Notes under the pieces: generated by a model | The model's database searches: none | Told to the model about the DNA's origin: nothing | What the model saw: the letters and a program-made list of their open reading frames with translations, nothing else | Program-made: the position numbers and the translations under genes | Shown: piece after piece, positions 11,010-13,859 of the stretch | Position numbering within the stretch: the stretch's first letter is position 1 | Layout of the letters: every line of letters begins with the position of its first letter | NCBI GenBank assembly: GCA_945869195.1 | Contig: CAMBNV010000005.1 | Span: 62,001-126,000 of the forward strand | Direction: 5' to 3' | From: Gemmatimonas phototrophica | Lineage (GTDB): Bacteria > Gemmatimonadota > Gemmatimonadetes > Gemmatimonadales > Gemmatimonadaceae | DNA: 64,000 bases

Positions 11010-12686
11010 CTACGACGGCGCGGTGAACAGGAAGTAGAGCAACAGCAGGTAGATCCCGGTCATCGCCGCCGCGTCGAGGTCCGAGAGATTCTGTTCGAGT
11101 TCGACGAACTGGTGCAACGCGTAGAAGAGCGGGAAGAGCAGGAGGACGAGCAGGAGCGTGGCAGAACTGATCGGCAACACAAACGCGGCGCCGCCGGTCG
11201 TTATCCCGAGGATCCCGATCACCAGCAGCGTGAATGGGAAGAGCAGGAACATCACCTGCGACATCCCGCCGAAAACATTACTGAGCGCGATCCCCAGTTC
11301 GCCGCGGCGATGCGACTTCCAAACGATGATGTATTCGCTGCTGCCGGCAAAGAACGCGAGCGCGGCGGCGGTCGGGATCGTCGGGAGCCCCATCCGGCCG
11401 AGTGCAGTCTCGGCGAAGCCGCCGATCGACTCGCCGCCGGCGTACGCCCCGATGAGACCGAGGGCGAACATCGAGCCGATCGCCGACCAACTGGTATCGT
11501 GGCCGAGCTTCGACGGCTCCAGTGGATGCGATTCGGCCTCGTCCCGTCCCTCGGCATAGTACTTGAGGAGCGAGTGCACGTAGTAGCCGTAGATAGCGAA
11601 CATCACGATGGCGATCGCGATCAGGTCGACGCCGACGAGCGCCGGCTTTCCATCGCCGACCTTGTGGACGATCATGACGACGCCGACGGTGAGCGCGATC
11701 GCCGCGCCGGCGATCATGATCTCGCCACCGGCGACGGTGAGCGACCGCGGCATCGCGTAGACGCCTTTGCGGTCCTTCGGCAAGAAGAATCCGTAGATCG
11801 AGAAGGCGAGCGCGTTGTTGAAGATCGTCACGATCGCGGTGACCACAGCGGCGAGCGGGTCCACGCGGACGAGGAAGGCGATCACGACGAACTCCGGCAG
11901 CGTACTGAGCAGCGACCCGACCGTGCCGGAGATGAACCCCTCCCAGTGGAGACGCGCCCCCAGCCGCTCGACGCCGGTGATGAACGCCTCGCATGCTCCC
12001 TGCAGGATCAACAGCCCGGCGATCAACTCGACGGCGGCGACGTAGGATCCCAGCCGAGTGAGCCATGCGGCGTCCGTCGCGTGGCCCGACGAGACAGTCA
12101 CCCAGAGCAGCAACCCGACACCCATCCAGATCTGCCACCCGTGCAGCGCCTTGCGCGCGTCGAGCGCGCGGATCGCGGTCGCCGCCCAGAACGACGCGCT
12201 CGGCAGCGCCGTCTTGACGCCGGACTTCCGCTCCCGGACGAGCCGCTCGAGCGCCGAGCGCAGGTTGGGCGACTCCGCCACCAGCTTGTCGAACGCCGCC
12301 TTGTCCACCCGCCAGAGGGAGATCTCGGTCTGCGCCGTGACCGTCGCCGAGCGGGTCTCGCCGGTCAGCAATGCCGTTTCCCCGACCAGGCTGCCGGCTC
12401 CAACGTCCCAGCTCTGCGTCTGCCCGTCGCGCGTGACGCGGGCGATCCCGCTCTCGATGAAGTACATCGCGTCGCCGCCGGCGCCTTGCTCGATGATCCG
12501 CGCTCCGGCGTCGTGCGATTCGTGATGGACCCAGGGGGCGATGGCCTGCACTTCCTCGGGCGGCAAGGCCCGCAGGAGATCGATCTGGCTGAGACGCCGG
12601 AGGATGGCGGCGAGTTTGCGGGTGCCTTCGGCCTCGGGAGCTGCCTCCGAGCCGATTTCCACTTCGACCTGCGACGCTGGTGCCAT
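11010..12686 (-). CDS. Cyclic-nucleotide-binding domain fused to CaCA-type cation exchanger
   Basis: The 558-residue protein has an N-terminal CAP-family cyclic-nucleotide-binding domain (about residues 28-150, with a phosphate-cassette-like GETALLTGETRSATV) followed by roughly ten membrane spans (about 185-555). The membrane part carries two inverted alpha-type repeats as in Na+/Ca2+ exchangers: GTVGSLLSTLPEFVV in the first and FFAGSSEYIIVWK in the second, which lacks the usual proline. The ATG at 12686 has AGGAG 11 nt upstream; a longer upstream frame runs through the divergent gene and is rejected. Cyclic-nucleotide control of cation/calcium exchange is inferred. The ion and ligand are not known. 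Confidence 0.8.
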   Translation of the reverse strand: MAPASQVEVEIGSEAAPEAEGTRKLAAILRRLSQIDLLRALPPEEVQAIAPWVHHESHDAGARIIEQGAGGDAMYFIESGIARVTRDGQTQSWDVGAGSLVGETALLTGETRSATVTAQTEISLWRVDKAAFDKLVAESPNLRSALERLVRERKSGVKTALPSASFWAATAIRALDARKALHGWQIWMGVGLLLWVTVSSGHATDAAWLTRLGSYVAAVELIAGLLILQGACEAFITGVERLGARLHWEGFISGTVGSLLSTLPEFVVIAFLVRVDPLAAVVTAIVTIFNNALAFSIYGFFLPKDRKGVYAMPRSLTVAGGEIMIAGAAIALTVGVVMIVHKVGDGKPALVGVDLIAIAIVMFAIYGYYVHSLLKYYAEGRDEAESHPLEPSKLGHDTSWSAIGSMFALGLIGAYAGGESIGGFAETALGRMGLPTIPTAAALAFFAGSSEYIIVWKSHRRGELGIALSNVFGGMSQVMFLLFPFTLLVIGILGITTGGAAFVLPISSATLLLVLLLFPLFYALHQFVELEQNLSDLDAAAMTGIYLLLLYFLFTAPS

Positions 12687-12773
12687 GGTTCGTTGAGCTC
12701 CTGGTGGGATGAACACCCGGTAAGATGCGGCGGCCGGGGCATTCGGGCCATAGTGTTCCGGCGCCGACCCCCG

Positions 12774-12779
12774 TATGAT
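12774..12779 (+). promoter_or_regulatory. -10 box (TATGAT) of the K+ channel gene, leaderless arrangement
   Basis: TATGAT ends exactly 6 nt before the ATG at 12786, and no purine-rich ribosome site lies between. This spacing puts the transcription start at or next to the start codon. A -35 element is poor. The divergent exchanger start lies 100 bp away, so this short region must serve both genes. Confidence 0.45.
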
Positions 12780-12785
12780 TTCGGC

Positions 12786-13859
12786 ATGCCGTCCGATACC
12801 AGCAAGCTGCAGAGCCGCCTCCTCGGCGCCGCCGCCATCATCGCCGGGACCTTCGCGGTCGGGGTCCTCGGCTATCGCGTGATCGGCGACGACCGACACA
12901 CGTGGATGGACGCCATCTATATGACGGCGAACGTGCTCACGACGGTGGGCTTTCGCGAGGCGATCACCATCGAAGGCGATACGGGCGCGCAGCTCTTCAC
13001 CATCGCATTGCTCTTCTTCGGAGCGGGCGCACTCGTCTACGCCACCTCGATCACTACCGCGTTCATCGTTGAAGGGGACCTCACGCAGAGATTCAGGAGC
13101 CGTCGCATGCAGCGTGCCATTGGGGAGATGAAGAACCACTACATCGTGTGCGGAACAGGAGCGACGGGCTACGCCGTGCTCCGCGAGCTCCTCCACACCG
13201 AGCGACCCGTCGTGGCGATCGAGCTGCACGAAGAGCGTGTGCAGCGGCTCCAGGTGGAGTTTCCGAACGTGCCGCTGCTCAAAGGGGACTTCACCGACAA
13301 TGAGGTCCTGGTGAGCGCCGGGATCGCGGTTGCCGCGGGCATCGTGATCTGCACGACGATCGAGAAGGATTCGCTCGTCACGACGGTCACCGCGCGTCTA
13401 CTGAACCCGCGGCTGCGGATCATCGCGCGGGCGGCCACCGAGCGCTCGATGGAACGTCTGCGGCACGCCGGAGCCGACAGTGTGGTCTCGCCGGCGCTCA
13501 TCGGTGGCATGCGGATGGCGAGCGAGCTCATCCGTCCGGCCGTGGTCGGATTCCTCGACATGATGCTCAAGGACCGGGATCGCAATCTGCGTGTCGACGA
13601 GGTCCCCGTCCCGGACGACTCACCCTTTCTCGGATCGGCGTTGAGCGAACTGCAGGCCCACGCGCGGACCAACTGCCTTGTGGTGGCGACCCGGAGCACC
13701 GGCGGCGCGTATTTCTACAATCCCTCGGAGCAGACCGTGCTTGAGCGGGGGAACGTACTCATCGTGATGGGCGACCCGGCGGGAGTCCGGGCCCTCACGA
13801 GGTTGTGCGCGACCGGAAGCGCGGCAGCTGAGCCGACTGCGAGTCCCGCGCGGCCCTGA
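12786..13859 (+). CDS. Two-span potassium channel with RCK (TrkA-N/TrkA-C) domains
   Basis: The 357-residue protein has two membrane helices (about 12-31 and 68-90) around a pore loop, then a Rossmann RCK domain (IVCGTGATGYAVLREL near 120, GDFTDNEVL near 165) and a C-terminal TrkA-C-like domain. This is the MthK-type layout for ligand-gated K+ flux. The selectivity filter reads TTVGFRE (Thr53-Val54-Gly55-Phe56-Arg57) where TVGYGD is usual. The ATG at 12786 is used; the open frame extending upstream is antisense to the exchanger gene. The two genes are divergent and are probably a functional ion-homeostasis pair. Confidence 0.85.
   Translation: MPSDTSKLQSRLLGAAAIIAGTFAVGVLGYRVIGDDRHTWMDAIYMTANVLTTVGFREAITIEGDTGAQLFTIALLFFGAGALVYATSITTAFIVEGDLTQRFRSRRMQRAIGEMKNHYIVCGTGATGYAVLRELLHTERPVVAIELHEERVQRLQVEFPNVPLLKGDFTDNEVLVSAGIAVAAGIVICTTIEKDSLVTTVTARLLNPRLRIIARAATERSMERLRHAGADSVVSPALIGGMRMASELIRPAVVGFLDMMLKDRDRNLRVDEVPVPDDSPFLGSALSELQAHARTNCLVVATRSTGGAYFYNPSEQTVLERGNVLIVMGDPAGVRALTRLCATGSAAAEPTASPARP

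Follow-up and report, generated by a model that had tools for sequence, protein, structure and literature searches.

A rare cyclic-nucleotide-domain CaCA exchanger beside an RCK channel with a non-canonical filter in Gemmatimonas phototrophica

Two divergent genes and the domains of the exchanger

The window analysed here is a stretch of 64,000 nucleotides from the Gemmatimonas phototrophica genome G000 (2.33 Mb, 15 contigs, 98% complete). Two divergent genes lie at positions 11010-13859, where a sequence-only reading had placed them. The first encodes a diverged CaCA exchanger with a cyclic-nucleotide-binding domain (CNBD), P0001 (11010..12686, minus strand, 558 aa), and was delimited by its ORF, Pfam matches and relatives. 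The second encodes a 2TM-RCK channel, P0002 (12786..13859, plus strand, 357 aa), and was called from its ORF, Pfam and PDB sequence matches. The gene coordinates leave a gap of 99 bp (12687..12785), which agrees with the shared region of about 100 bp proposed earlier. A consensus scan of this gap found no sigma-70-like promoter, so that transcription of both genes from it is presumed. The exchanger likely starts at the ATG at 12686. A longer ORF of 739 aa, opening at the GTG at 13229, overlaps the channel on the opposite strand and is unlikely to be the exchanger gene because the homologues L036 and L040 begin shortly before the CNBD. Matches of the fused exchanger query antisense to channels were discarded as artificial, since the query spanned stop to stop and reached into the channel region.

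Pfam matched both halves of P0001, so the proposed fusion of a CNBD to a CaCA exchanger held. The N-terminal CNBD (PF00027, E 2.9e-18) covers residues 57-138 (12273..12518, minus strand) and contains the phosphate-binding cassette GETALLTGETRSATV with E103 and R112. PF01699 (E 1.6e-10; 41.6 bits against a cut-off of 24.9) matched in two stretches, the best at residues 406-554. The alpha-1 repeat (residues 248-300; 11787..11945, minus strand), with STLPE265 and N290/N291, was placed by invariance among six relatives and by profile alignment to YrbG-type CaCA proteins, and the alpha-2 repeat (residues 440-486; 11229..11369, minus strand), GSSE451 followed by Q477 and P484, by alignment, profile and the published CAX residues (PMC10227063). 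E265, N290/N291, E451, N470, Q477 and P484 were invariant in the six-sequence alignment, and E265 and E451 provide the acidic residue per alpha repeat by which CaCA proteins are recognised.

P0001 resembles CAX/ChaA-type proteins (YfkE, VCX1) in its two PF01699 repeats, each with one Glu, and in a Gln 26 residues past the second Glu. This spacing, from E451 to Q477, is that of the second-repeat pair E255/Q281 of the CAX protein YfkE (PMC10227063) and of local CAX/ChaA-type proteins, which also agree in the QV...P pattern. Judged by motif spacing, P0001 carries no carboxylate at the position equivalent to D240 of NCX_Mj (PMC8366772). It differs from the CAX type in its alpha-1 STLPE, which is nearer to the NCX-type GTSLPE, in having Tyr452 rather than His after the second Glu, and in the added N-terminal CNBD. 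The profile of P0001 was closer to YrbG-type CaCA proteins (hhalign E 1.2e-6) than to two CAX-type proteins, for which the match was not significant (probability 0.5%, E 0.11); CAX-like chemistry is therefore a motif-level assignment. A profile search against PDB sequences matched no CaCA structure. The AlphaFold model built from six sequences was poor (mean pLDDT 49), so the ten-TM inverted-repeat fold of the CaCA superfamily is predicted for P0001 from its sequence. Going by these motifs, P0001 is most likely a CAX-like Ca2+/H+ antiporter, with its transported ions predicted.

The cassette Glu and Arg were retained in all three fused proteins found (P0001, L036 and L040), and the best PDB sequence matches of the P0001 CNBD were regulatory domains of PKG and PKA. 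The genome encodes one class III cyclase domain (L104, C1:36972-37490; motifs FSDIRGFT, DKFIGD and GDPVNVSSRL) in a protein that looks like FHA, GAF and cyclase in sequence. In this cyclase the sequence shows Asp residues for metal binding as well as the Lys/Asp pair typical of adenylyl cyclases. Four CNBD proteins were found in the genome, namely a CRP-like protein of 226 aa, one of 191 aa, a CNBD-aspartase and P0001. No diadenylate cyclase (DAC) domain was found in G000, and gating of the channel's RCK C-lobe by c-di-AMP was rejected on this ground. Control of the putative Ca2+/H+ exchanger by cAMP is plausible but unproven, given the intact CNBD motif, the single class III cyclase and the lack of a c-di-AMP synthase. 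The CNBD might instead be a structural or oligomerising domain that binds no ligand, with a constitutive exchanger. In the relatives L037-L039 the core exists without a CNBD, which favours such a role, but the conserved cassette residues and the encoded cyclase speak against it, and we consider it unlikely.

Distribution of the exchanger and its pairing with the channel

The exchanger was present in 3 of the 201 genomes of the order, G000 itself and two of the 200 other genomes sampled: G179, with 63% identity, and G087, with 75% across an internally shortened copy. In the latter (L004 1069-1944), most of the CNBD and the first repeat are missing through an in-frame gap, which may be a true deletion or a misassembly. 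A conserved-peptide scan of a collection of 84,980 species genomes, which requires a short-peptide match and can let distant members escape, gave five exchanger loci (L036-L040) from Gemmatimonadetes, two Deltaproteobacteria MAGs, Nitrospinae and Bdellovibrionales. No exchanger match was found in plasmids. P0001, L036 and L040 carry the fused CNBD and L037-L039 lack it; in a tree of these six sequences a fully supported branch separates the fused proteins from the others, so that a single gain or a single loss of the CNBD suffices. As the fusion is kept in two other lineages, it is not an assembly artefact; it is real and rare. The rarity of the exchanger and its spread over phyla suggest horizontal transfer. 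Term searches of the literature returned no paper on CNBD-CaCA fusions. Upstream of two of the CNBD-less exchangers lies a small gene of 164-183 aa (L037 3131-3625, L038 1227-1778) with a weak DUF2383 match below the cut-off, possibly a separate regulator.

The sequence-only reading had staked the idea of a joint module on co-conservation of the two genes, and no exchanger relative was found paired with a channel. None adjoined the exchanger at the five collection loci or at the shortened G087 copy, although L036 shows only 191 bp upstream, so that this side is unseen; the exchanger sample is small and drawn from incomplete MAGs, in which a neighbour could be missed. The genomes of the two Gemmatimonadota exchanger relatives, both incomplete, contained no P0002 homologue, and in those of L037, L038 and L039 the channel homologues were on contigs other than the exchanger's. 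Homologues of the channel, of whatever degree, were found in 118 of the 201 genomes (about 35 full-length at at least 39% identity), and dozens of genomes have the channel family without the exchanger.

In P0002's own family an asparaginase gene typically precedes the channel; leuS lies close by, and often so does a CNBD-aspartase. G000 has its CNBD-aspartase together with an asparaginase on a different contig. The exchanger-channel arrangement in the window is thus probably a local rearrangement, since the relatives are unpaired and the family channel usually sits after asparaginase elsewhere. At the aspartase loci (L063-L065, L069, L070, L084, L085 and L087-L092, and L108, where no channel is present), an aspartase/fumarase-type lyase with an N-terminal CNBD is divergent from a Tat-type asparaginase, which precedes the channel. 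These aspartase neighbours were not counted as antiporter evidence because they appear to have been inherited as a single neighbourhood together with asparaginase and, in many cases, leuS.

A dedicated module, in which both genes are co-regulated from the 99-bp region and place Ca2+/Na+ and K+ under the influence of a nucleotide messenger, would fit the divergent layout at so short a distance, and it would gain from the same logic recurring with another antiporter type, described below. Against it stand the exchanger relatives without an adjoining channel, the unequal distribution of the two genes, the usual place of the family channel after asparaginase, and the CNBD-aspartase often found near the channel locus, which shows that CNBD neighbours need not be antiporters. 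We regard the dedicated module as improbable, and as a conserved pair it is not supported. What stands of the proposed signalling-controlled ion module is the fusion, the intact cassette and the class III cyclase; the conserved pairing does not.

A clade of RCK channels fixed for a filter with one glycine

P0002 has the 2TM pore and the RCK N and C lobes of MthK-like channels, with all three domains above Pfam cut-offs: Ion_trans_2 at residues 21-95, TrkA_N at 119-236 (13140..13493, plus strand), with the nucleotide motif GTGATG at residue 123 and the acidic E146 after it, and TrkA_C at 272-341 (13599..13808, plus strand). Its best PDB sequence matches were GsuK and MthK. The K+ signature TVGYG or TVGFG was absent from P0002; the selectivity filter (residues 52-59; 12939..12962, plus strand) reads TTVGFREA, with R57 in place of the second glycine of GYG. 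P0002 thus departs from MthK and GsuK in having GFR rather than GYG. It has a single RCK bearing GxGxxG, against two RCK stretches in GsuK. The MthK Ca2+ ligands D184, E210 and E212 align with C189, R215 and A217 in P0002, and with these ligands missing, the idea that Ca2+ gates the channel and so ties it to the exchanger was rejected. Of the ligand-gated K+ channel proposed for this gene, the 2TM-RCK architecture was confirmed, and the K+ identity became uncertain with a filter that lacks the second glycine.

The most interesting part of the locus is the clade to which this filter belongs, a single fully supported branch (100/99) of 25 channels (the window channel, L063-L073 and L080-L092). 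All 25 have lost the second filter glycine, which is replaced by R in 19, K in four and T in two, and in 21 of them T replaces V before the first glycine. The residue before the lost glycine varies (Y, F, L, T or I), and the pore is otherwise well conserved, with F71, T72, G79, A80, E96, G97 and D98 in 25/25. In the sister group the second glycine was kept in 9 of 11 channels (the canonical filter of L074, for example, reads TTVGYGEI). Outside the clade it was present in 28 of the 32 aligned channels, and R or K took its place in two of the 32; two more distant Gemmatimonadota channels (L100 and L101) also carry R or K. Single filter changes therefore recur, and within the sample this clade alone has fixed one. 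Literature searches with filter strings such as TVGFRE gave two matches, both unrelated.

One explanation of this filter is decay, with P0002 a non-conducting relic, perhaps a sensor only, whose glycine loss reflects lost conduction. The complete loss of the second glycine and the varied residue before it favour this. The conservation of the rest of the pore, the full-length frames across many genera and the R or K in 23 of the 25, which points to constraint, argue the other way, and we give the relic reading a low probability. In KtrB and TrkH, K+ channels of the SKT type, each pore loop likewise carries only one glycine in its filter (PMC5449183). They are built of four covalently linked repeats with separate RCK subunits, unlike the 2TM subunit of P0002 with its own RCK, and we take the resemblance as a lead on mechanism without a claim of membership. 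The clade offers natural variants without a residue to which a central part in the K+ selectivity of tetrameric channels is ascribed, and its close relatives with the glycine retained make the effect testable by a one-residue swap in a native background.

RCK channels beside other CNBD antiporters

In three genomes from other genera of the order (G105, G187 and G153), the gene immediately upstream of a CPA1 Na+/H+ antiporter with its CNBD at the C-terminus encodes a P0002-type channel (about 41% identity), and G197 has a truncated channel at the same place. Seven CPA1-CNBD genes were found in the order, of which three adjoin an intact channel and one a truncated channel; none was seen around those of G023, G129 and G191. 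These loci resemble the window in joining a CNBD antiporter to a P0002-type channel and differ from it in the antiporter fold (PF00999), the C-terminal position of the CNBD and the same-strand layout with the channel upstream. With the window included, two antiporter folds adjoin RCK channels, and the combination of an RCK channel and an adjacent CNBD antiporter may recur with differing partners. The pattern is suggestive only: it came to light post hoc, the numbers are small, and the CPA1 loci may go back to a single ancestor. A looser form of the module idea survives because the RCK channel adjoins a different CNBD antiporter too.

Taking these data together, we favour a reading to which we give an even chance. 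P0001 would be a CAX-like Ca2+/H+ antiporter from a rare, horizontally scattered CaCA subfamily, its rate tuned by the binding of cAMP (or another cNMP) to the cytoplasmic CNBD. P0002 would be an independent tetrameric 2TM-RCK channel with a non-canonical single-glycine filter; its gating ligand would be a nucleotide of the cytosol (ADP/ATP or NAD(H)), not Ca2+ bound at an MthK-type site. Their adjacency would be local to this genome and not an inherited unit. The two proteins may still serve the same ion balance, since related genera place the RCK channel beside CPA1-CNBD antiporters. A further, rather unlikely proposal combines two ideas: that the clade with the fixed T-T-[TVA]-G-x-[R/K/T] filter differs in selectivity, its channels being permeable to Na+, weakly selective or SKT-like, and that such RCK channels have repeatedly been paired in this order with non-homologous CNBD antiporters, as interchangeable units of a cAMP-tuned antiporter and a nucleotide-gated channel.

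If the favoured reading is true, a bacterial cAMP-regulated CaCA exchanger would parallel the sperm Na+/H+ exchanger SLC9C1, a secondary antiporter with a CNBD whose activity is modulated by cAMP (PMC10620091). SLC9C1 differs from P0001 in its unrelated SLC9 transport domain, in having the CNBD at the C-terminal side and in its voltage sensor.

At the CPA1 loci (L060, L061, L062 and L128) the channel is followed by the CPA1-CNBD gene, the channel of L128 being truncated, and in three of them a small TM2-domain-like gene lies ahead.
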